Assembly: GCF_028292965.1 (NCBI RefSeq)
Contig: NZ_JAQGLG010000077.1
Span: forward strand, 1-64,000
DNA from: Sphingomonas bacterium
GTDB lineage: Bacteria; Pseudomonadota; Alphaproteobacteria; Sphingomonadales; Sphingomonadaceae
DNA length: 64,000 nucleotides
Direction: 5' to 3'
Part shown: piece by piece, positions 6,933-60,131 of the stretch
Numbering within the stretch: position 1 is the stretch's first letter
Layout of the letters: every line of letters starts with the position of its first letter
Translations under genes and position numbers: made by a program
Notes under the pieces: model-generated
Seen by the model: only the letters and a program-made list of their open reading frames with translations
Told to the model about the DNA's origin: nothing
Databases searched by the model: none

Positions 6933-8204
6933 TCAGCGCGCCGAGGTGCTCAGGTCGTTCGACGCCATCCTTCGCGCGAAATGCACCTCGACCGCGCGCA
7001 GGATGCTCTCGGCGATGCGCCGGCGGCCGTCGGGCGAATCGATGAACGCCGCGTCGGTCGGGTTGGAGATATAGCCGGTCTCGAACAGGATCGACGGCAT
7101 ATCGGGCGCCTTCAGCACCATCAGCGAGGCCATGCGGTGGAAATTGGGGCGGACCGGGATTAACGGCTGGGCCTCGCGGCCGAGCAGGCGGGCGAAGTTC
7201 GCCGAATTGTTCATCGTCTCGCGCTGCGTCAGCTCGATCAGGATCGACGAGATGTCGGCGGTGGTCGAGGCGAGGTTGACGCCCGAGATGATGTCGGCCT
7301 TGTTCTCGCGCGCCGCCAGCTTGGCGGCTTCCTTGTCAGATGCCACCTCGGACAGGGTGTAGACCGAGGCGCCCGAGGCGCTGCCCGCGCCGACGCTGTC
7401 GCAGTGGATCGAAATGAACAGATCGGCGTGGAGCCGACGCGCGATGCCATAGCGTTCCTGCAGAACGAGAAAGCGATCGTCATCACGGGTCAGCGCGACG
7501 CGCACGCGGCCCGAGGCGACCAGTTCGTCGCGGATCGCGCGGGCGATGCGCAGCGTGACGTCCTTTTCGCGGCGACCGTCGATCGGTGAGATCGCACCGG
7601 GATCGACCCCGCCATGGCCGGCATCGATCACCACCAGCGGGCGGCTGTCGTCGTCGCCATAGATGTGCGGCAGCGGCAGGCCGCGCGCCGGCGGGGGAAC
7701 GTTCTGGGCGACCTCGTAGCGGTGCGCGGGAGATTCGGCGCCGAGATTGAAGGGCGGCAGGAAGCGCAGCCGCCCCTCTGCGGCGGCGCGCGCGAACCCG
7801 GCGTCGTCGACAGTGCGCAGCTCGAGCGTCAGCTCGCGGCCGTCGCTGCCGAACGACCCTTCGGTAACCACGGCGGGGCGGGTGAGATCGAACACGATGC
7901 GCGTGCCGTCACCATGCCAGCCCTGGCGCACCGCTGAGACCATACCCTTGCCGCCACTGTTGGAGCCAGGTGTCGCGCCGCCGACATCGACCGCGATCCG
8001 TTCCGGGCCGGCAAGCATGAAGGCCGACGCATCGGCGACGCTCTGATCGAAGCGCACGACGATACGGTCGCTCTTGATGTCGACATGCTCGATCGTGGCG
8101 GCCCAACCGGGCGTGCCGGCAAACCAGCAGGCCAGCAGGGCGAGAAGGAATGACACGGGCTTGTAATGCCGTGCCGAGGGGGCACGGGTCCAGTGAAAAG
8201 GCAT
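6933..8204 (-). CDS. amiC: N-acetylmuramoyl-L-alanine amidase with AMIN domain
   Basis: A 423-residue secreted amidase that cleaves the amide bond between MurNAc and the peptide, splitting septal peptidoglycan. An N-terminal hydrophobic segment (FLLALLACWFAG) ends near GWAATI, followed by an AMIN domain (about 35-140) that targets the cell wall, then an Amidase_3 domain with zinc ligands in IDAGHGGVDPGA, GRREKDVTL and FISIHCDS. No clear ribosome-binding site precedes the annotated ATG, and a start at the GTG just before SFLLALL is also possible. It is divergent from rne; the rne-amiC-mrcA-prfB order is common in Alphaproteobacteria, though here mrcA is displaced by about 3 kb. Confidence 0.94.
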   Translation of the reverse strand: MPFHWTRAPSARHYKPVSFLLALLACWFAGTPGWAATIEHVDIKSDRIVVRFDQSVADASAFMLAGPERIAVDVGGATPGSNSGGKGMVSAVRQGWHGDGTRIVFDLTRPAVVTEGSFGSDGRELTLELRTVDDAGFARAAAEGRLRFLPPFNLGAESPAHRYEVAQNVPPPARGLPLPHIYGDDDSRPLVVIDAGHGGVDPGAISPIDGRREKDVTLRIARAIRDELVASGRVRVALTRDDDRFLVLQERYGIARRLHADLFISIHCDSVGAGSASGASVYTLSEVASDKEAAKLAARENKADIISGVNLASTTADISSILIELTQRETMNNSANFARLLGREAQPLIPVRPNFHRMASLMVLKAPDMPSILFETGYISNPTDAAFIDSPDGRRRIAESILRAVEVHFARRMASNDLSTSAR

Positions 8205-8676
8205 GGGTGGGGGATCCCATTGGGTTTCGTCGTGATGACAGCCCTAGGGGTTCGCCCGTGACTTCACGGTGAAGCGAAGCGGTTAACCGGCAGGTAGGCA
8301 TAATATTGCCGGCAAGGCGGCCAAAACGTGCCGGTTGCTGCGCCGATCATTGGGTGCTAATCATCAAAATGTTCGGGCAAGCGCTTAGTTTTTCGCGCTG
8401 TTCGACATAATTTTCCGCGCCGGCTTTCTCGGTCGCGGGCTATCCAGGTTGACGTTCGCATGCCGTATTTCCCCGCACCCGCAAACCGTTCGGCGCAAGC
8501 CGGCGGGTACGCGGGCGTGCGAGGTGTCCTGGGCCACCGGCCCGGACGTGCGGTGCGAGCAGAGGCATTCACCCACATCATCCCACCGGCCGGCGCGTTC
8601 GCCGACGGGGGGCTGCAATCACATCGCGCGCGGCTAGCGCTGCCAGCGTCCGGACCGCGCGCCCGGAGAATATTAC
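8205..8676. other. Divergent amiC / rne intergenic region and probable rne leader
   Basis: 472 bp without a gene. It must contain the promoters of both neighbours, but no clear -35/-10 pair was identified. A GGTTAACC palindrome lies near 8280. The half nearest rne is very GC-rich and can fold: the best stem is GTCCTGGGCC-ACC-GGCCCGGAC (8526-8547, one bulged T), with further candidates near 8590-8610 and 8630-8665. In E. coli the rne 5' leader mediates feedback control by RNase E; a similar role here is an inference from length and structure only. Confidence 0.5.
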
Positions 8677-11400
8677 ATGACCATGCGTATGCTGATCGAC
8701 GCACGCCACCGGGAAGAAACCCGTGTGGCGGTCGTCAAAGGAAACCGGATCGAAGAGTTTGATTTCGAATCCGCCGAGCGCAAGCAGCTCAAGGGCAATA
8801 TCTATCTTGCCAAGGTAACAAGGGTCGAGCCGTCGCTACAGGCGGCGTTCATCGATTACGGTGGCAATCGCCACGGGTTCCTCGCGTTCAGCGAAATCCA
8901 TCCCGATTATTATCAGATCCCCAAGGAGGATCGCGACGCGCTGCTGCGCGAAGAGGCCGAGCATGCCGCCGAGGAGGCCGCGCTGCGCGCCGAGATGGAC
9001 GCGGATGACGAGCTGCACGGCGAGGAGTTCCACGACGACGACGAGTTCCACGGCGACGACGACCATCATCATGACGATGAGGGCCGCGATCCCGACGAGG
9101 AGACGGTCGAGCGTTTCGAGGACGATGGCGGGGCCGACCCCGAAGTCGCCGCCGAGCAGGAAGCCAAGGGCGGCCGTGGTCGCGGGCGTGGCCGTGGCGG
9201 TCGTCGCGGCGGTTCCGACGAAGCGGTGGAGGATCTGCGCGAGCGTCGCATGAACCTGCGTCGCCGCTACAAGATCCAGGACGTGATCCGCCGCCGTCAG
9301 GTGCTGCTGGTCCAGGTCGTCAAGGAGGAGCGCGGCAACAAGGGCGCGGCGCTGACCACCTATCTCAGCCTTGCCGGCCGTTACTGCGTGCTGATGCCCA
9401 ACACGTCGCATGGCGGCGGTATCAGCCGCAAGATTTCGAACGCGGGCGATCGCAAGCGTTTGAAGACGATCATGGCGGACATGAAGCTGCCGCCGTCGAT
9501 GGGCTGCATCGTGCGTACCGCCGGTCTTCAGCGTACCAAGGTCGAGATCAAGCGCGACTTCGATTATCTCGCCCGGCTGTGGGACGGGATCCGCGAGACG
9601 ACGCTCGCCTCGTCGGCGCCGGCGCTGGTCTATGGCGACAGCGACCTGATCAAACGCGCGATCCGCGACATCTATAATCGCGACATCGATGAGATCATCA
9701 TCGAGGGCGAGGAGGGGTACCGCCAGGCCAAGGACTTCATGAAGCTGCTGATGCCTAGCCATGCGCGGCGGGTGAAGCATTATTCCGACCCGGTGCCGCT
9801 GTTCCAGCGCGCGCATGTCGAGGATCAGCTGTCGGCGATGTACCACCCGGTGGTGCAGCTGAAGTCGGGCGGTTACCTCGTGATCAACCCGACCGAGGCG
9901 TTGGTGTCGATCGACATCAACTCGGGCCGCTCGACGCGCGAGCATAATATCGAGCAGACCGCGACCGCGACCAATCTCGAGGCGACGCATGAGATCGCCC
10001 GCCAGCTGCGCCTGCGCGACATGGCTGGCCTCGTCGTCATCGACTTCATCGACATGGACAATAATTCCAATGTCCGGAAGGTCGAGAAGGCGATGAAGGA
10101 GGCGCTGAAGAACGATCGCGCCCGCATCCAGGTCGGCCGCATTTCGAGCTTCGGCCTGATGGAGATGAGCCGCCAGCGCCTGCGCACCGGTGTGCTCGAA
10201 GCATCGACACGCCAGTGTCCGCATTGCGAGGGCACGGGTCTGGTCCGCACCGCTTCGTCGGCCGGTCTGTCGGCGCTGCGCATGATCGAGGACGAGGCCG
10301 CGCAGGGGCGCGGTTCGCAGGTCCTGCTGCGCGCCAGCACCGAGGCTGCCGTTTATGTGCTCAATCGCAAGCGCAGCGAGCTGGCCGAGATCGAAGACCG
10401 TTACGGCGTGCGCGTCGAGATCGTGCCCGATGGCGAGCAGGAAGGCGCGCGCATGTCAGTCGAGGTCTCAGGGCCGCCGCCGGCGCATGCCCCGCGCTTC
10501 GACGCGCCGATCCAGGATCTCGACGACGATCTGCCCGAGGATATCGAGGACGAGATCGAAGAGGTCGAGGAAGAGGAAGAAGCCGAGACGCCCCGCGCCG
10601 CCCGTGCGCCGCGCGAGCCGCGCGCCGAGGGTGACGAAGGCGAGCGTGGTGAAGGCCGCAACAAGCGCCGTCGCCGTCGCGGTCGTCGCGGTCGCAATCG
10701 TGAAGAGGGCGATGCGCCGCAGGGCGAGGGCGAAGCCGCCGAGGGTGGCGAGTCCGAGGCCGAAGGCGATGAGGGCGAAGGCGAAGAGACGCAGCGCGAA
10801 GCGGCCGAGGGTTCGGCCGATGGCGAGCGCGGTGACGGTCGCCGTCGTCGTGGTCGTCGCGGTCGTCGCGGTGGTCGTCGCCCCGAGGGCGAGCGGGCCG
10901 AGGGCGAGCCTGGTGAGGCGTCGAGCGACGATACCGCTCCGGTCGAGGCCGAAGCCGCAGCCGAGCCGGTCGTCGAGGAAGAGGCGCCCAAGAAGGGCCG
11001 CCGTCGTCCCCGTGCCCGTGCCGCCGACGCGGTGGAAGCGGTCGTGGCGCCTGCACCCGAGCCCGAACCGGAACCTGTTGCCGAAGTCGCAGCGGAGCCG
11101 GCCGCCAAGCCCAAGCGTTCGCGCAAGAAGGCGGTAGCCGAGGAAGCGCCCGGCGAAGCAGTTGCCGAGCCGACGCCGGTCGTCACGGCCGAGCCGGTTG
11201 CCGAGGACGCGCCGGCGGAGAAGCCCAAAGCCAAGGGTCGTGCACCGCGCCGCAAGGCGGCCGATGTCGCGGCGGAGCAAGCCCCGGCGATCCCGCCCAA
11301 GGCGGATGGCGAAGCGCCGGCCGATGACGATGCCGATCCCGGCGAGGCTGGCTCGCCGCGCCGCGGCTGGTGGCAGCGCACCTTCGGCGCTGGCGAATGA
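8677..11400 (+). CDS. rne: Ribonuclease E
   Basis: A 907-residue endoribonuclease that starts mRNA decay and matures rRNA/tRNA. The S1 domain is interrupted by a roughly 100-residue acidic, His-rich and RG-rich insert (about 91-198). The catalytic Asp pair is D413 (VSIDINSG) and D456 (VVIDFIDMD), with the same 43-residue spacing as D303/D346 in E. coli. The Zn-link Cys pair is CPHC (514-517). Beyond about 590 the tail is disordered, alternating Glu-rich and Arg/Gly-rich blocks and then Ala/Pro/Glu repeats, as expected for the degradosome-scaffold region. GGAG lies 9 nt before the ATG. Confidence 0.97.
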   Translation: MTMRMLIDARHREETRVAVVKGNRIEEFDFESAERKQLKGNIYLAKVTRVEPSLQAAFIDYGGNRHGFLAFSEIHPDYYQIPKEDRDALLREEAEHAAEEAALRAEMDADDELHGEEFHDDDEFHGDDDHHHDDEGRDPDEETVERFEDDGGADPEVAAEQEAKGGRGRGRGRGGRRGGSDEAVEDLRERRMNLRRRYKIQDVIRRRQVLLVQVVKEERGNKGAALTTYLSLAGRYCVLMPNTSHGGGISRKISNAGDRKRLKTIMADMKLPPSMGCIVRTAGLQRTKVEIKRDFDYLARLWDGIRETTLASSAPALVYGDSDLIKRAIRDIYNRDIDEIIIEGEEGYRQAKDFMKLLMPSHARRVKHYSDPVPLFQRAHVEDQLSAMYHPVVQLKSGGYLVINPTEALVSIDINSGRSTREHNIEQTATATNLEATHEIARQLRLRDMAGLVVIDFIDMDNNSNVRKVEKAMKEALKNDRARIQVGRISSFGLMEMSRQRLRTGVLEASTRQCPHCEGTGLVRTASSAGLSALRMIEDEAAQGRGSQVLLRASTEAAVYVLNRKRSELAEIEDRYGVRVEIVPDGEQEGARMSVEVSGPPPAHAPRFDAPIQDLDDDLPEDIEDEIEEVEEEEEAETPRAARAPREPRAEGDEGERGEGRNKRRRRRGRRGRNREEGDAPQGEGEAAEGGESEAEGDEGEGEETQREAAEGSADGERGDGRRRRGRRGRRGGRRPEGERAEGEPGEASSDDTAPVEAEAAAEPVVEEEAPKKGRRRPRARAADAVEAVVAPAPEPEPEPVAEVAAEPAAKPKRSRKKAVAEEAPGEAVAEPTPVVTAEPVAEDAPAEKPKAKGRAPRRKAADVAAEQAPAIPPKADGEAPADDDADPGEAGSPRRGWWQRTFGAGE

Positions 11401-45512: not shown

Positions 45513-45785
45513 ATGGGTGCCATTCGCAAAATCAGCATCGCGCTTACCGAAGAGATGGCCGTCTCTGTTGATCAAGCGGTCGCCAGCGGTGACTATGCTA
45601 CCACCAGTGAGGTAATTCGCGAGGCCTTACGTCTGTGGAAGGGGCAGCGTCTGACAAACGACGTCGCAGTCTTGCGCCGTTTGTGGGATGATGGCGTTGC
45701 GAGCGGACCCGCGGTCGCCGGTGACTTCGATCCGGAGGATATCGCGCGACGCGGCCGCGAGCGGATGGCGACTGCCAAGCAATGA
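45513..45785 (+). CDS. parD: ParD-family antitoxin
   Basis: A 90-residue protein with an N-terminal ribbon-helix-helix domain (KISIALTEEMAVSVDQAVASGDYATTSEVIREALRLWK) that should bind the operator upstream and a flexible acidic C-terminus that neutralises ParE. The stop overlaps the toxin start as ATGA (4 bp), the standard order. The RHH strand KISIALTEEM is typical. It is just downstream of uup on the same strand but has its own operator. Confidence 0.92.
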   Translation: MGAIRKISIALTEEMAVSVDQAVASGDYATTSEVIREALRLWKGQRLTNDVAVLRRLWDDGVASGPAVAGDFDPEDIARRGRERMATAKQ

Positions 45786-46099
45786 CGTTTGCCATTCGGC
45801 GACTGCCTGCGGCCATCGCCGATCTCGACGCTGTCTGGGACTATATCGCGCAGGACAATCCCGATGCGGCAGACCAGATCGTTGCCCGGATAGCGACCGC
45901 AACGCGTCGCTTGGCCGACTTTCCATCGAGCGGCACGCGGCGCCCGGATATTCACCCCACTGCGCATTCGGTTCCGATGGGCGCCTATCTGATCTTGTAT
46001 CGCGTGAACGAAGGGGTCGTTGAGATCGTGCGGGTACTCCATAGCGCGCGCGACCTTTCTCTGGCCTCGCCGGACTTCACCAATGCGTCAGGCGATTAG
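45782..46099 (+). CDS. parE: ParE-family toxin
   Basis: A 105-residue RelE/ParE superfamily toxin: IRRLPAAIADLDAVWDYIAQDNPDAADQIVARI with the helical hairpin, RRLADFPSSGTRRPDIHPT and LILYRVNEGVVEIVRVLHSARDL at the C-terminus. ParE toxins poison DNA gyrase, though some relatives cleave mRNA; activity here is inferred from the family. Overlaps the antitoxin by 4 bp and the tail-to-tail histidine kinase by 12 bp at its stop. Confidence 0.92.
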   Translation: MTFAIRRLPAAIADLDAVWDYIAQDNPDAADQIVARIATATRRLADFPSSGTRRPDIHPTAHSVPMGAYLILYRVNEGVVEIVRVLHSARDLSLASPDFTNASGD

Positions 46100-53597: not shown

Positions 53598-54986
53598 CTA
53601 GCGCACGCCTTCCGGCCACAGCACGACGCGGATCGTCTGCAGGATGATCAGCAGGTCGAGGAAGGGCGAATAGTTCTTGGCGTAATAGAGGTCGTATTCG
53701 AGCTTCTGGCGCGAATCGTCGATCGACGCGCCATAGGGATAGTTGATCTGAGCCCAGCCGGTGATGCCGGGCTTCACCATGTGACGCTCGGCATAATAAT
53801 TGAGCTGCTGTTCGAGGTCGTCGACGAATTGCGGGCGTTCAGGCCGCGGGCCGACGAAGCTCATCTCGCCCTTCAGGACGCTCCAGCATTGCGGCAGCTC
53901 GTCGATCCGCGTCTTGCGGATGAAGCGGCCGACGCGGGTGATGCGCGGGTCGTCCTTCTCTGCCCAGACCGCCTTGCCGCCGACTTCGGCGTCCTGGCGC
54001 ATCGAGCGCAGCTTGATGCAGTCGAAACCCTCGCCGAACAGCCCGACGCGGCGCTGGCGGTAGAAGGCCGGGCCCTTGCTCTCGAACTTGATGGCGATCG
54101 CGGTGATCATGATCACCGGCAATGCCAGCGTCAGCAGCAACAGGCTGACGCAGATGTCGAACAAGCGCTTGAACGCACTGGAGAACATGCGGCCCGAGGA
54201 GAAGCCATCGGAGAAGATCAGCCAGCTCGGATTGACGCTCTGCAGGTCGACGCGGCCGGTCTCTCGCTCGAGGAAGGTCGATATCTCGTTGACGTGCACG
54301 CCGGTGGTCTTGATGCGCAGCAGATCCTTGAGCGGCAGCGCGTTGCGGCGTTCCTCCAGCGCGAGTACGACTTCGCTGGCGTTCAAAAGCACGACATGGT
54401 CGGCGAGGTTGTAGATTGCATCACGCGCGATTGCCTCGGGGATGACGCGATTGGCTTCGCTCATCGAGACATAGCCAACCACGACGAAGGCCGATCCAGG
54501 CTGTTGCGCCAGCGCCTTGAGGCGCGCGGCGCGGGCGCCGGCGCCGAGCACGACGATGCGGCGCTTGAACGCCTGGCCGCCGAGCAGCTTGCCGAGCAGG
54601 ATACGCAGCGCGAACAGCAGCACGACCGCAAAGCCCATCGAATAGAGCAGGTTGGAGCGCCAGAAGGCCAGTTCGGGCACGATGAAGAAGATCACCGCCT
54701 GGACGATCACGCCGAGCGAAATAGCGACCAGCAGCCGCGCCGCGGCGATGCGCAGCGATTGCAGCGAGTTGGCGCTGTACACGCCGACTGCGATCATCGC
54801 GGTCATCAGGCTGAAAGCGAAGGTGGCGAGCTGCCAGGCGCGGGTCGCGATCGGCGGGATCGCCATGCCGACCTGTCCGGCGCGCGTCGTCCAGCCCAGC
54901 TCGCCGGCCGTGATCAGCATCACGAGGTCGAGCAGGCCGAGCAGCAGCACGGCGTTCGGGATATAATGCTTGAACAACCTGACCAT
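53598..54986 (-). CDS. Sugar transferase, TIGR03013 / XrtA type
   Basis: A 462-residue undecaprenyl-phosphate sugar transferase that begins exopolysaccharide repeat-unit synthesis. The start at MVRLFKHYIPN gives five N-terminal membrane helices, a Rossmann-like middle (RIVVLGAGARAARL), and the bacterial sugar transferase domain with AFKRLFDICVSLLLL, KFESKGPAFYRQRRVG, SMRQDAEVGG and FVGPRPERPQFV plus GITGWAQINYPYG. The variant with two domains matches the family found beside PrsK in XrtA clusters. The ORF-track start is 26 codons earlier. Confidence 0.92.
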   Translation of the reverse strand: MVRLFKHYIPNAVLLLGLLDLVMLITAGELGWTTRAGQVGMAIPPIATRAWQLATFAFSLMTAMIAVGVYSANSLQSLRIAAARLLVAISLGVIVQAVIFFIVPELAFWRSNLLYSMGFAVVLLFALRILLGKLLGGQAFKRRIVVLGAGARAARLKALAQQPGSAFVVVGYVSMSEANRVIPEAIARDAIYNLADHVVLLNASEVVLALEERRNALPLKDLLRIKTTGVHVNEISTFLERETGRVDLQSVNPSWLIFSDGFSSGRMFSSAFKRLFDICVSLLLLTLALPVIMITAIAIKFESKGPAFYRQRRVGLFGEGFDCIKLRSMRQDAEVGGKAVWAEKDDPRITRVGRFIRKTRIDELPQCWSVLKGEMSFVGPRPERPQFVDDLEQQLNYYAERHMVKPGITGWAQINYPYGASIDDSRQKLEYDLYYAKNYSPFLDLLIILQTIRVVLWPEGVR

Positions 54987-55152
54987 TGCGACCCAGCCTT
55001 CTGCCCCGGGATTGTAAGGGATCCCGACACTTGGCCTTCGGATGTCGCAGAAATTGACAAACAAAGGTTGAACGCGGCGGATCGCTCTTGATCCAGGGCA
55101 GTTTCAACTGCCACGGTCTGCGGCTATCGCGGCCATAACAGGAGTTGCTTGC

Positions 55153-56205
55153 ATGGACGTTGCCGCGCCGATCGTTCCCGTCATTCTGTCCGGTGGATCG
55201 GGTACCCGGTTGTGGCCGATGTCGACGGCCGAGCGGCCAAAGCAGATGCTGGCGCTGACCGCCGAACAGACCATGCTCCAACTCACCGCGCGGCGCGCGC
55301 ATGGCGAGCGCTTCGCCGCGCCGATCGTCGTCGCCAATGCACGCCATGCCGATATGGTCGAGAGCCAGTTGCGCGATGTCGCCGCCGCGGCACAGGCGCT
55401 GATCCTCGAGCCCGTGGGGCGCAACACCGCGCCGGCGATCGCGCTTGCCGCGATCGCGGCGGGTGGCGGCGATGCGCCGCTGCTGGTGATGCCATCGGAC
55501 CATGTGATATCCGATGTCCCGGCCTTTCATGCCGCGATTCATGCCGCGCTGCCGCTGGTCGAGCAGGGCTGGCTGGTGACCTTCGGCATCGCCGCCGACG
55601 CGCCGGAGACCGGTTATGGCTGGATCCATATCGGCGAGGAGATCGCCGGCGGCGTGCACCGCGTGGTCAGCTTCGTGGAGAAGCCGCCGCGCGACCGCGC
55701 CGAGGCGATGCTGGCGGGCGGCGACCATGCATGGAATGGCGGCATCTTCCTGTTCCGCGCCGATATCTATCTCGGCGCGCTGGCGGTGCACGCGCCGGAC
55801 ATGCTCGCCGCCTGCCAACAGGCGATGGATAGCGCCGTTCGCGATGGCCGGCGCATTTTCCCCGATGAGGCTGCCTTCGGCGCCGCACCGGCGGACTCGA
55901 TCGACTATGCCGTGATGGAAAAGGCCGAGCGGGTGGCGGTGGTGCCGGTCAATATGGGGTGGAGCGACGTCGGCAGCTGGGACGCACTGCATGCGATCAG
56001 CGATTGCGACGACGGCGGCAACAGCGTCGTAGGCGATGTCGTGATGCTCGAAACGACCAATTGCCTGGTCCGCAGCGATGGTCTGCGCGTGGCGACACTG
56101 GGGGTGGCCGATCTGATCGTCGTGGCCAGTGGCAATGATGTCCTGATCCTGCCACGCGGACGGTCGCAGGACGTCAAGAAGCTTATCGACGCGATGAAGG
56201 GATGA
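55153..56205 (+). CDS. manC: Mannose-1-phosphate guanylyltransferase
   Basis: A 350-residue nucleotidyltransferase making GDP-mannose from GTP and mannose-1-phosphate. Motifs: LSGGSGTRLWPMSTAERPKQ (nucleotide binding), EPVGRNTAPAIALAA, MPSDHVI, and FVEKPP. The phosphomannose isomerase domain of bifunctional ManC/AlgA is absent, so it is a single-activity enzyme. CAGGAG precedes the ATG. It is divergent from the sugar transferase (166 bp apart), consistent with supply of GDP-mannose for the exopolysaccharide. Confidence 0.93.
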   Translation: MDVAAPIVPVILSGGSGTRLWPMSTAERPKQMLALTAEQTMLQLTARRAHGERFAAPIVVANARHADMVESQLRDVAAAAQALILEPVGRNTAPAIALAAIAAGGGDAPLLVMPSDHVISDVPAFHAAIHAALPLVEQGWLVTFGIAADAPETGYGWIHIGEEIAGGVHRVVSFVEKPPRDRAEAMLAGGDHAWNGGIFLFRADIYLGALAVHAPDMLAACQQAMDSAVRDGRRIFPDEAAFGAAPADSIDYAVMEKAERVAVVPVNMGWSDVGSWDALHAISDCDDGGNSVVGDVVMLETTNCLVRSDGLRVATLGVADLIVVASGNDVLILPRGRSQDVKKLIDAMKG

Positions 56206-56320: not shown

Positions 56321-57511
56321 CTAGCCGAGCCGCAGAGCCTCGAGCTCAGCATAGGGCGCGGCCATATATTGCTCGACCACTGCCAGCACCTCGGGCGTCG
56401 CTTCCGCCCGCTTGTCGGCCCCGTCCGGGACGAATTTCCGCTCCTTGGACTTCACGTCCTGCCGGGTGGCGTCCTGCATCGCTGCCTGGTCCGCCGCATC
56501 GATCGCCATACCGAAATGCGGGAGCATGCGTTCCGCCACGGCGTCCGGCATTTCGTTGTAGTTGATCAGGATTCCGCCGCCGCTCGCCATGCCATCGACG
56601 GCCGCTCGGCAGATCTGGCCCAGCACATTGGCACCATGAGCCAGCACCGAATCTTCGCTGTTGGCGGCGAAGGTATCCTGCTGGATTTCGCCGGGCACGG
56701 CCATCATTCCAGCCTGGCGCTTCTGGGAGACCATGACCTCGAGCGGATCGCGGTACATGAACACCCATGGCGTATCGGGAAAGGCTGCGCGAAACAGCGG
56801 CAGCGCCTTGATGTGCCAGGCGTCGAGCTTGATGACATAGCGCCGCCCATCGCCCGCCCGGTCGCGGCCGAGCGCGGCGACGACCGCGCGCAAGACGCGC
56901 ACATGGATGTCGAGTGGCAGCCCCGGAATCTGGTGGTTGAGCTGGACTGCGCCGTCGATCGGGGCCGCTTCAGAGGCGACGATCGAGCCCGGCAGCGCCG
57001 CGATCATCTGTGCCGCCAGGGTCGAGCCGCAGCGCGACATGTGGAAGATGAAACCGTCGGGCATCAGCGCATCGTCCGGGACGGGCGCATCGATCAGGCT
57101 CTGCAGCGTCGAGCGTTTGGTCAGCAACCGATTGATCGGCAGGCAACCGGCGGTGCGCGCCGAGCTTTCGAAGAAGGATTCCTGCAGTGGCGCACCCGCG
57201 AAATGCGTCCAGCTTATCGCTGCACCTTGAGGCGTGGGTACGATGGCGGTCGGTAACCATTGCCGGGGCGGATAGCCGTCATTGGTGGCGTCGCCGCCGC
57301 TCCACCGCGCTATGCCGAGCGGGTCGGGCTTCAGCGCATGATACAGCATGTCCTCATCGAGCATGATCGCCTGATCTGCGGCGGCGGCAATCACGGCGGC
57401 ATTAAACTCTTCCGGAAGATAGAGCGGGGCAAGCATGTCCTGCAGCGCCGTGTCTTTCGAGACCATCGCGCGGAGTTGTTCGATCGGGGTGAGGCTTTCG
57501 CTTGGCTGCAC
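56321..57511 (-). CDS. Sulfotransferase-like protein
   Basis: A 396-residue protein with the sulfotransferase 5'-PSB loop FIFHMSRCGSTLAAQM for PAPS binding and a later VFMYRDPLEVMVSQ resembling the 3'-PB region. An N-terminal 170-residue helical domain precedes it. The chosen GTG at 57511 follows AGGGAA and leaves space for the divergent neighbour; the ATG at 57598 would overlap it. It may modify a small molecule, a peptide or polysaccharide; substrate unknown. It is divergent with the aspartyl hydroxylase, a pairing also recalled from other sphingomonads. Confidence 0.8.
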   Translation of the reverse strand: MQPSESLTPIEQLRAMVSKDTALQDMLAPLYLPEEFNAAVIAAAADQAIMLDEDMLYHALKPDPLGIARWSGGDATNDGYPPRQWLPTAIVPTPQGAAISWTHFAGAPLQESFFESSARTAGCLPINRLLTKRSTLQSLIDAPVPDDALMPDGFIFHMSRCGSTLAAQMIAALPGSIVASEAAPIDGAVQLNHQIPGLPLDIHVRVLRAVVAALGRDRAGDGRRYVIKLDAWHIKALPLFRAAFPDTPWVFMYRDPLEVMVSQKRQAGMMAVPGEIQQDTFAANSEDSVLAHGANVLGQICRAAVDGMASGGGILINYNEMPDAVAERMLPHFGMAIDAADQAAMQDATRQDVKSKERKFVPDGADKRAEATPEVLAVVEQYMAAPYAELEALRLG

Positions 57512-57596
57512 CGAATTTCCCTGGATGATGACGGACGGGTGGCTTGCACCACTGCGCGTACCGCCTATCGTGGCAGGCGTGCTTGAACAATCTCCC

Positions 57597-58169
57597 ATGA
57601 CGATCCCCGATCGCGTGCGCTTGCCCTTCGCCTTCGACGCCGCGCGGCTGGTCGCCGATCTCGACCATGTGGTGCGCGGAAACTGGATCGCGCATTTCGT
57701 GAAACAGAATTACGACGGGGTGTGGGACGTGCTGCCGTTGCGCGGCAAGGCCGGCGCCACCCATCCGGTGATGATGATCTATTCGGACCCGAGTGCGACC
57801 GAATTCGAGGATGGGCCGTTGCTCGACGAGACGCCGTATATCCGCGCGTTGCTGTCGGCATTCCGCTGCCCCCTGCGGTCGGTGCGGCTGATGCGGCTGA
57901 CCCCAGGCTCGATGATCAAGGAGCATGACGATGGTGACCTCGCCGCCGAATGGGGCATGGCGCGAATCCATGTGCCGATCACTACCAACCCGCAGGTCGA
58001 GTTCATGGTCAACCGGGTGCCGGTGGTGATGGCACCGGGCGAGGCCTGGTATCTGCGCCTGTCCGACAAGCACAGCGTCGCCAATCGCGGCACCACCGAC
58101 CGCGTCCATCTGGTGATCGACGCGGTTGCGGACGATTGGCTGCTCGACCTGCTGAAGCGCGCCGCCTGA
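57597..58169 (+). CDS. Aspartyl/asparaginyl beta-hydroxylase-like protein
   Basis: A 190-residue Fe(II)/2-oxoglutarate oxygenase of the Asp_Arg_Hydrox family (MTIPDRVRLPFAFD start). The iron site is GSMIKEHDDGDLAAEWG (H110, D111/112) with distal H171 in DRVHLVIDAV; ARIHVPITTNPQVEFMVN is typical. It probably hydroxylates a peptide Asp/Asn or an amino-acid-bearing small molecule. The divergent arrangement with a sulfotransferase suggests a shared modification pathway, an inference. Ends 3 bp before the convergent PepF gene stop. Confidence 0.9.
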   Translation: MTIPDRVRLPFAFDAARLVADLDHVVRGNWIAHFVKQNYDGVWDVLPLRGKAGATHPVMMIYSDPSATEFEDGPLLDETPYIRALLSAFRCPLRSVRLMRLTPGSMIKEHDDGDLAAEWGMARIHVPITTNPQVEFMVNRVPVVMAPGEAWYLRLSDKHSVANRGTTDRVHLVIDAVADDWLLDLLKRAA

Positions 58170-58172
58170 GCT

Positions 58173-60041
58173 TCAGGCCATCAACGCCTCGACCTGGTCG
58201 AGCGTGTCCTTGAAGGTCGCGATCACCGCCTGATAGGGCGCGCCAGTGGTCATATCGAGCCCGGCGCGCTTGAGGATGTCGACCGGATAATCCGAGCCGC
58301 CGGCCTTCAGCACCGACAGGTAATTGTCGCGTTCCTTCGCGCCGCCCTTAAGGATCGAGCGCGCGAAATAGGACGCTGCCGAGATGCAGGTGGCATATTG
58401 ATAGACATAGAAGCTGGTGTAGAAATGGGGGATGTAGGCCCATTCCGAGGCGTAGGTGTCGGGCACCATGACCTTCTCGCCGTGATAACGGCGCAGCAGG
58501 TCGAGATAGGTCGCGCTGAGTTTCTCGCCCGACAGGCCTTCGCCGGCCTCGGCCTTGTCGTGGATCGCCAGTTCGAACTCGGCGAACATGGTCTGGCGGT
58601 AGAAGGTGCCGCGGATGCCTTCGAGTTGCTGGCCGAGATAGAAGAGTTTCTCTTCCTTCGTCTTGGCCTGCTTGACCATGTACGCGGCAAGCAGCTGCTC
58701 GTTGCAGGTCGAGGCGATCTCGGCGAGGAAGATCGGGTAATCCGACTTGTCGTAGATCTGCGTCTTGTTGGCGAACAGGGTGTGCATGGCATGGCCCCAT
58801 TCATGGGCATAGGTCGTCATGCCCTCATAATTCTCGCCCAGGTTGAGCAGCAGATAGGGGTGCACGTCATAGGCCGCGCCGGGGTTCATATAGGCACCCG
58901 ACTTCTTGCCTGGGCGGGGCAGGGGGTCCATCCACTTGGCAGCGGTCGCCTTTGACAGGGTCGCGACATAATCGGGGCCGAGCGGCGCCAGCGCCTGCAG
59001 CACGGTGGTGCGCATCTCCGGCACGGTGACCTTCTTGTCGAGCTGCACCAGCGGCGGATAGATGTCGTAATAGGCCATGTCGGGCAGCTTGAGCATGCGC
59101 CGGCGCAGGTCGAAATAGCGATGCAGCTGGGGCAGGCCGGTGTTGGTTTCACGGACGAGCGAGCGGTACACCGTCTCGGGAATGTTGCTGCCCGACAGAT
59201 ACATGGCGAGCGACGTCGGATATTTGCGCGCCTTCTTGCGGAAGATGTCGGCCTTCACATGGCTGAGATAGGCGGCGCCGAGCGAGCTCTGGAATTTCCC
59301 GTATTCGGCCCAGAAAGTGTCGAACACCAGCTTGCGGTCGGCGCGGTTTGGCGCGTCGCGGTTGAGCGTATAGGCCTGATCGTCGAGGCGGACCTGCTTG
59401 CCGGTCGACAGGGTGACGGTCGGCCAGGGAATGTCCGAGGCGACGAGTTGCTCGCGGATATCGCGCGATCCCGAGAAGGGCGAGGAAGTGCCGGCGAGCA
59501 GGTTCTCGCCTTCAGGCGACAAAGTGTGCTCGGCCTGGCGGATGATGTCGGCGAGATAGAAATCGAAGCGTGATTTTAGCGCGGCGTTGGCGGCGAGGAA
59601 GCCGTCGATCTTCGCCTTCCCCATTGCCAGCAGTTCGGGCGCGACCCATGAGGTCGCCTCGCCGAACGCAGTGAACATATCGGTCGCCTGGGCCTGCTTT
59701 TCCTGATTGGCCGAGACGCGCAGATCGGCGTCCGCCTTGAGACTGATATAGGTATAGACCCGCCCGGCGACGCGGCCGAGATCGGACTGGGCGATCAGCG
59801 CGGCGGCGAGCGCGTCGGCGCTCGTGCCGAGCGTGCCCTTATATTTGAGCAAGCCGGGAATGTCGGCCAGCACCTTCTTGCGTGCGGCGTCCCATGCCGC
59901 GTCGTCGGCATAAAGATCGCCGAGATCCCACGCCGCCATATCGCTCGGTGTCGCCTTATCCTGAGCCCAGGCCGGCACCGTGAGGGCGAGCGAGACGAGG
60001 GCGGTGGCGGCCAGGGCCTCGCGGCGGGACAGTTCGGTCAT
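58173..60041 (-). CDS. Oligoendopeptidase F-like M3 peptidase, exported
   Basis: A 622-residue M3B metallopeptidase: HEWGHAMHTLF is the HExxH zinc site, with the third ligand region about 25 residues later (FLAEIASTCNEQLLAAYM). Unlike the usual cytoplasmic PepF, it starts MTELSRREALAATALVSLALTVPAWAQ, a twin-arginine-like signal (SRREAL) cut after AWAQ, so it likely acts in the periplasm on peptides up to about 20 residues. GAGG 8 nt before the ATG. Start at 60041; the ORF track uses a TTG at 60047. Confidence 0.92.
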   Translation of the reverse strand: MTELSRREALAATALVSLALTVPAWAQDKATPSDMAAWDLGDLYADDAAWDAARKKVLADIPGLLKYKGTLGTSADALAAALIAQSDLGRVAGRVYTYISLKADADLRVSANQEKQAQATDMFTAFGEATSWVAPELLAMGKAKIDGFLAANAALKSRFDFYLADIIRQAEHTLSPEGENLLAGTSSPFSGSRDIREQLVASDIPWPTVTLSTGKQVRLDDQAYTLNRDAPNRADRKLVFDTFWAEYGKFQSSLGAAYLSHVKADIFRKKARKYPTSLAMYLSGSNIPETVYRSLVRETNTGLPQLHRYFDLRRRMLKLPDMAYYDIYPPLVQLDKKVTVPEMRTTVLQALAPLGPDYVATLSKATAAKWMDPLPRPGKKSGAYMNPGAAYDVHPYLLLNLGENYEGMTTYAHEWGHAMHTLFANKTQIYDKSDYPIFLAEIASTCNEQLLAAYMVKQAKTKEEKLFYLGQQLEGIRGTFYRQTMFAEFELAIHDKAEAGEGLSGEKLSATYLDLLRRYHGEKVMVPDTYASEWAYIPHFYTSFYVYQYATCISAASYFARSILKGGAKERDNYLSVLKAGGSDYPVDILKRAGLDMTTGAPYQAVIATFKDTLDQVEALMA

Positions 60042-60131
60042 TGGCAAGCCTCGATAGAAAGGGACGCGCCTGTTTGCCTCGCGGCCCGATGAAAGAAAAG
60101 AGCGTTTTGCCCCGCTAAGGCACCTTGACTC

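Follow-up and report, generated by a model that had tools for sequence, protein, structure and literature searches.

The window analysed here, the whole 64-kb stretch of DNA from a Sphingomonas genome (contig C143; 64,000 nucleotides), contains a sulfotransferase gene and a hydroxylase gene, hereafter ST2 and HYD, which are both intact and divergently oriented, just as the first-pass annotation had stated. The pair stands alone beside exopolysaccharide (EPS)/PrsK genes, in an order, PrsT-PrsK-EpsB2-GMP-ST2-HYD-M3, that the window shares with about ten Sphingomonas loci. The relevant features are the following:

53598–55064, minus strand: XrtA/PEP-CTERM-type exopolysaccharide sugar transferase EpsB_2 (TIGR03013, 505 bits)
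55153–56205, plus strand: mannose-1-phosphate guanylyltransferase, GMP (TIGR01479, 400 bits)
56321–57511, minus strand: ST2, PAPS-dependent sulfotransferase of 396 aa (PF13469 match; GTG start at 57511, stop at 56321)
About residues 9–59 of ST2, minus strand: N-terminal helical Nif11-like segment (weak Nif11 matches in relatives; helical in the AlphaFold model)
57017–57037, minus strand: 5'-phosphosulfate loop of ST2, SRCGSTL, residues 159–165 (R160, C161, G162, S163 and T164 invariant in 36 relatives)
57512–57596: gap of 85 bp between the divergent ST2 and HYD, from the window sequence
57597–58169, plus strand: HYD, Fe(II)/2-oxoglutarate hydroxylase of the PF05118 family, 190 aa (PF05118 match; ATG at 57597)
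57924–58103, plus strand: active site of HYD, with H110 (57924–57926), D112 (57930–57932), H159 (58071–58073) and R169 (58101–58103), invariant in 42 relatives
58173–60047, minus strand: oligoendopeptidase F of the M3 family, ending 3 bp from HYD (TIGR00181, 511 bits)

At 45513–46099 on the plus strand, inspection by eye suggests a toxin-antitoxin pair of the ParD/ParE type, in which the gene for a ribbon-helix-helix protein precedes one for a RelE/ParE-like protein. The 64-kb window gave no match to a lasso-type cyclase, B2 protease, HprK-like kinase or precursor, and the collar genes considered below do not adjoin the pair in it; the collar trio of this genome is found on another contig, C195.

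The two enzymes and their pairing across genomes

The assignment of ST2 to the PAPS-dependent sulfotransferases follows from its match to the Pfam profile PF13469 (Sulfotransfer_3; 30.2 bits, cut-off 27), which is shared by 36/36 of its relatives, and from the presence of both the 5' loop and the 3'-phosphate motif, the R254 and S262 of the latter being unchanged across the 36 aligned relatives. The sequence AGGGAAA lies upstream of its GTG start. The acceptor cannot be read from the phosphosulfate loop, and the best PDB fold matches of the AlphaFold model (pLDDT 93) are the tyrosylprotein sulfotransferases, albeit at a modest TM of about 0.4. The leader-like start of the protein is helical in this model, while the Nif11 profile is matched weakly and by only 6/36 relatives (best E 0.008).

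HYD likewise belongs to a known family: it matches PF05118 (Asp_Arg_Hydrox) with 51.8 bits against a cut-off of 22.6 and possesses both the HxD...H triad and the 2OG-binding arginine of that family. The iron site had been described as intact, and this is borne out by the alignment, wherein H110, D112 and H159, which bind the metal, and R169, which binds 2OG, display no variation. A comparison of the AlphaFold model (pLDDT 93.6) with the PDB ranks L-proline cis-4-hydroxylase (4p7x/4p7w) first, followed by a nucleoside-antibiotic beta-hydroxylase and AspH. Thus, "aspartyl" in the earlier label of aspartyl hydroxylase holds as the family name only, the nearest solved relative being L-proline cis-4-hydroxylase. 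The region between the genes, earlier taken to be an 86-bp shared promoter, is indeed a short divergent gap, though of 85 bp; no sigma-70-type promoter was matched within 57512–57596, and since that consensus tells little for an alphaproteobacterium, the shared promoter is best regarded as putative.

A scan with a HYD profile over 84,980 species genomes recovered 49 HYD loci from Sphingomonas, Caulobacter, Methylobacterium, Acidobacteria and others. The first-pass annotation had called for such a co-occurrence survey and held that rare adjacency in other genomes would speak against its reading; ST2 was found directly next to HYD (within 500 bp) in 32/49 loci, 29 of them divergent and 3 co-directional, which is far above chance, and several of the loci without an adjacent ST2 stop at a contig edge. 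The short divergent gap is preserved in 29/49 loci. In the HYD tree the EPS-type and lasso-type contexts need three changes each, with the EPS location not forming one clade, and the pair has been kept together through several relocations into different gene neighborhoods. These comparisons of gene order and phylogeny offer good support for the view that ST2 and HYD constitute a conserved two-gene pair. No HYD relative was found in 50,697 phage records, and in this the pair is unlike the gene set of a phage tail. Six ST2-like genes of other Sphingomonadaceae genomes have no HYD nearby and look like paralogues; four of these are at GroEL, adjoining or standing close to groEL in four genomes (L015, L016, L017 and L018).

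Coupling of a hydroxylase to a sulfotransferase also takes the form of gene fusion. A Diaphorobacter plasmid encodes a related PF05118 hydroxylase in natural fusion with a sulfotransferase from a different subfamily (L136:8980–10872, beside an IPTL-CTERM surface protein), and an Asticcacaulis plasmid holds a tblastn match over 97% of this fusion inside an ST-HYD-ST cluster, where the sulfotransferase part alone is annotated (L140, about 8001–9791; the cluster is next to a TonB receptor). The Diaphorobacter fusion was set aside as evidence on ST2 proper, its sulfotransferase being no ST2 orthologue, and for that reason it backs the pairing in principle only. The two activities thus seem to have become coupled on more than one occasion.

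The two steps are separable, as HYD keeps its collar genes in Acidobacteria and Pseudoalteromonas, where ST2 is absent nearby. The gene adjoining HYD in Pseudoalteromonas is a methyltransferase and not ST2, and the conjugating enzyme beside HYD thus seems exchangeable. This locus (L137:8138–13507) runs from the HYD relative through the methyltransferase-like gene, a GNAT and a DUF6916 protein to three collar genes. The first-pass annotation had proposed a two-step tailoring system in which the hydroxyl made by the oxygenase becomes the acceptor for sulfate. The conserved pair and the Diaphorobacter fusion together make a hydroxylate-then-sulfate order plausible, and the two-step idea is upheld as a working hypothesis.

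Collar proteins and lasso-type clusters

"Phage tail collar" proteins (PF07484) are small, stand-alone proteins that resemble phage tail fibres. Many pair loci are flanked by genes for them, usually three along with one for a GNAT acetyltransferase, and in L114, L115, L133 and L158 ST2 directly adjoins these collar genes. Among 201 same-genus genomes, 43 carry HYD and 63 carry full-length collar genes; the latter occur in 39/43 genomes with HYD vs 24/158 without (Fisher p=1.6e-20, kinship ignored), none being found in the other four same-genus HYD genomes. Collar genes also occur elsewhere in the genome in 29/30 HYD genomes, most of which had been picked for having no collar near HYD. In Methylobacterium, Acidobacteria and a Pseudoalteromonas plasmid, HYD is accompanied by collars and GNAT in the absence of lasso genes. 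Hence, while the substrate had earlier been described as not evident, HYD is seen to track stand-alone collar proteins, and, judged from gene content, the collar link of the pair is a strong one. The collar proteins begin with MSxPFxGEI and have no evident signal peptide; a relative has turned up among the exoproteins of a marine Roseobacter (PMC4949626).

A second set of genes, of the lasso-peptide type, is encountered around many pair loci: an HprK-like kinase, a second sulfotransferase, a lasso-type B2 protease, a PqqD-like protein and an asparagine-synthetase cyclase. The same loci also carry three PF07484 collars, the GNAT acetyltransferase and a DUF6916 protein, and beside the cyclase lie small ORFs resembling precursors, which share the motif W-x-T-P-x-[VL]-I-x-S and for the most part end in GS (L012–L014, L034–L043, L049, L062, L067, L070, L079 and L111). 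The conserved C-terminal Ser of these ORFs fits the linked HprK-like kinase. A lasso-type cyclase had no match at E<1e-60 in 22/29 HYD genomes searched, and as collars are present in 29/30 HYD genomes, it is they and not the lasso genes that are the constant partner of the pair; to judge by these distributions, the lasso-peptide module is frequent near the pair but dispensable. An Azospirillum oryzae plasmid (L168:1–5580) combines similar genes in a different order: three tail-fibre proteins and GNAT are accompanied there by a 2OG-Fe(II) oxygenase, asparagine synthetase B and a precursor-like ORF of 58 aa (PWHKPALRRF...).

The genome bearing the window has its own cluster of this kind on contig C195 (L080:6579–13664), comprising PqqD, a second sulfotransferase (ST1), an HprK-like kinase, a cyclase, a precursor candidate (61 aa, L080:10587–10772, minus strand, ending in YVTYGPS), three collars, GNAT and DUF6916. 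No second HYD or ST2 was found in this genome, the C195 cluster included, and the pair in the window would therefore act on it in trans. Given an assembly of 94% completeness and 6.5% contamination, C143 and C195 might conceivably originate from different organisms.

The link between HYD and the collars may extend to a particular residue. When the collar alignment was scanned over all columns and nine residue types for enrichment in HYD genomes, the top column was the last residue, an Asn that closes the conserved ending G-[IV]-[FY]-P-x-[RQ]-N. Counting complete ORFs only, with duplicates removed and kinship ignored, Asn is the last residue in 75/77 collars on the same locus as HYD, in 61/81 collars elsewhere in HYD genomes, and in 42/100 collars without HYD (38/78 from Sphingomonadaceae and 4/22 from plasmid trios, other phyla). 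Held-out HYD genomes yielded Asn in 41/55 (75%) vs 105/113 (93%) in the discovery set, the held-out non-Asn collars being mostly from genomes with a separate mixed-type trio. Where HYD is absent, the paralogues of a trio usually differ in their last residue (N, T, G or S), whereas HYD-linked trios are nearly all N-ending, be it in Acidobacteria, Pseudoalteromonas or Sphingomonas. All of the collars on C195 (3/3) end in Asn.

Candidate substrates of the pair

These patterns may be brought together in a tentative reading, to which we give slightly less than an even chance, wherein HYD and ST2 carry out a two-step tailoring of collar proteins, most likely at the C-terminal Asn. HYD would hydroxylate a residue of the collar, the last Asn of the above ending being the best candidate, and ST2 would then move sulfate onto the new hydroxyl or one nearby. 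Where ST2 is not found nearby, as in Acidobacteria, or is replaced by a methyltransferase, as in Pseudoalteromonas, the hydroxyl might stay free or be capped otherwise. The likely targets in the genome at hand would be the three Asn-ending collars of C195. The parts of this reading differ in strength: that the two enzymes share one substrate is probable; that this substrate is a collar protein could go either way; and that the modified residue is the last Asn we consider doubtful. That both genes are intact, that they pair, that they co-occur with collar genes and that the collars are enriched in a C-terminal Asn are observations; we infer that a collar is the substrate, which residue is modified, which step comes first and that the product is secreted. 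A more elaborate version, in which the collar proteins of free-living bacteria, generally three paralogues, would carry a hydroxylated and then sulfated C-terminal Asn, in a module that also acetylates by means of GNAT and to which a phosphorylated lasso-type peptide is frequently coupled, is unlikely to hold in its entirety.

The lasso-type peptide was the initial substrate candidate, and a reading in which the pair tailors it has several points in its favor. Sphingomonas, Novosphingobium and Erythrobacter have clusters of this type that enclose the pair or HYD, and in which precursor-like ORFs with WxTPxVIxS...GS adjoin the cyclase gene, in the company of the PqqD-like protein, B2 protease, HprK-like kinase and second sulfotransferase; the C195 cluster has its own precursor candidate; and both hydroxylation and Ser-phosphorylation of lasso peptides are known (PMC9266682). 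It was demoted on account of the HYD genomes without a cyclase match, which span the S. leidyi type, Caulobacter, Methylobacterium, Acidobacteria and others, while collars persist nearly throughout; moreover, clusters with lasso and collar genes exist without the pair (L141–L144 and L149). The lasso-type peptide as the substrate thus seems rather unlikely to us. The position of the pair in the window among XrtA/PrsK-type EPS genes might suggest an exopolysaccharide or surface glycan instead, the latter having been named earlier, alongside a peptide, as a likely target. Sugars are acceptors of many bacterial sulfotransferases, and the conserved order around the pair in the Sphingomonas genomes mentioned above would agree with it. 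To our knowledge, however, PF05118 hydroxylases have amino acids and not sugars as substrates, and the EPS location is scattered on the HYD tree, with three label changes. Above all, because the pair stays joined in the absence of EPS genes (Caulobacter, Methylobacterium and the lasso-type loci), this reading was demoted too; the pair tracks collars despite the flanking exopolysaccharide genes of the window, so that a glycan target is not favored and is rated as quite improbable.

A further possibility, scarcely more probable than the glycan, is that regulation or chance position alone links the two enzymes, which would act on unrelated small-molecule substrates, HYD being a hydroxylase of a free amino acid such as proline. 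The affinity of HYD to L-proline cis-4-hydroxylase, at 24–26% identity, is in line with this; the possibility fits less well with the fusion of hydroxylase and sulfotransferase, with an adjacency that survives relocation, with the tight link of HYD to collar genes, and with the absence from HYD of the C-terminal extra region of the proline hydroxylases.

The tailoring of collar proteins, if true, would represent a novel type of modification at the protein C-terminus, in which sulfation follows hydroxylation, and would also connect proteins of the tail-fibre kind with lasso-type peptide clusters. Tail-collar proteins that stand alone occur widely among bacteria; one branch of them is marked by the two conserved enzymes, which also point to a predicted residue therein. 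Even if the tailoring reading is wrong, the comparative data still show both enzymes and the collar genes traveling together. In the literature searched, which lay mostly outside subscription journals, no prior description was found of the pair or of a link of hydroxylase/sulfotransferase or lasso clusters to tail-collar proteins.

Comparison with known systems

Several parallels might be struck with characterized systems. Enzymes of the PF05118 fold act on amino acids and on Asp/Asn in proteins. L-proline cis-4-hydroxylase (4p7w/4p7x) and proline 3-hydroxylase (1e5r) have the same fold and HxD...H...R site as HYD, and the L-proline cis-4-hydroxylase group is also its best sequence match; HYD is, however, about 100 aa shorter than these 280–290-aa proteins, and its genes are placed in protein/peptide clusters and not with amino-acid metabolism. 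Human AspH, the aspartyl/asparaginyl beta-hydroxylase, shares the fold at 11–13% identity and differs from HYD in having a TPR domain and in acting on EGF-like domains in the ER. On the sulfotransferase side, TPST1/2 furnish the best folds for ST2 at 14–17% identity, the N-terminal helical segment being an extra of ST2, and both would sulfate a protein.

At the level of gene clusters, the PadeK/SyanK-type kinase lasso clusters (paeninodin; Sphingobium yanoikuyae) share with the clusters that often hold the pair an HprK-like kinase, a PqqD-like B1, a B2, a cyclase and a Ser-ending precursor; in the descriptions consulted, the ST2/HYD pair is not described and the collar trio not mentioned. The module with which the pair co-occurs corresponds to operons of stand-alone "tail fiber protein" (PF07484, COG4675) and GNAT, which are also found on plasmids of Deinococcus, Paenibacillus, Ruegeria and Comamonas; these are mostly without HYD/ST2 and have mixed last residues, as in the Asn count of the plasmid trios above. 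Plasmid loci of Deinococcus, Comamonas, Paenibacillus, Aminobacter, Spirosoma, Ruegeria and Hymenobacter (L161–L167) carry such stand-alone trios, with a single gene in Hymenobacter, mostly with GNAT and often flanking very large repeat, Ig-like or YDG-domain surface proteins. A C-terminal residue is also the site of action in lasso peptides, wherein the lasso kinases modify a C-terminal Ser and the 2OG/Fe hydroxylase CanE acts on the C-terminal Asp of canucin (PMC9266682), which gives a precedent for a 2OG hydroxylase working at such a position. While no sulfotransferase or collar gene has been described with CanE, it resembles HYD in being a 2OG/Fe enzyme, and the residue on which it works is the last one of a ribosomal precursor.
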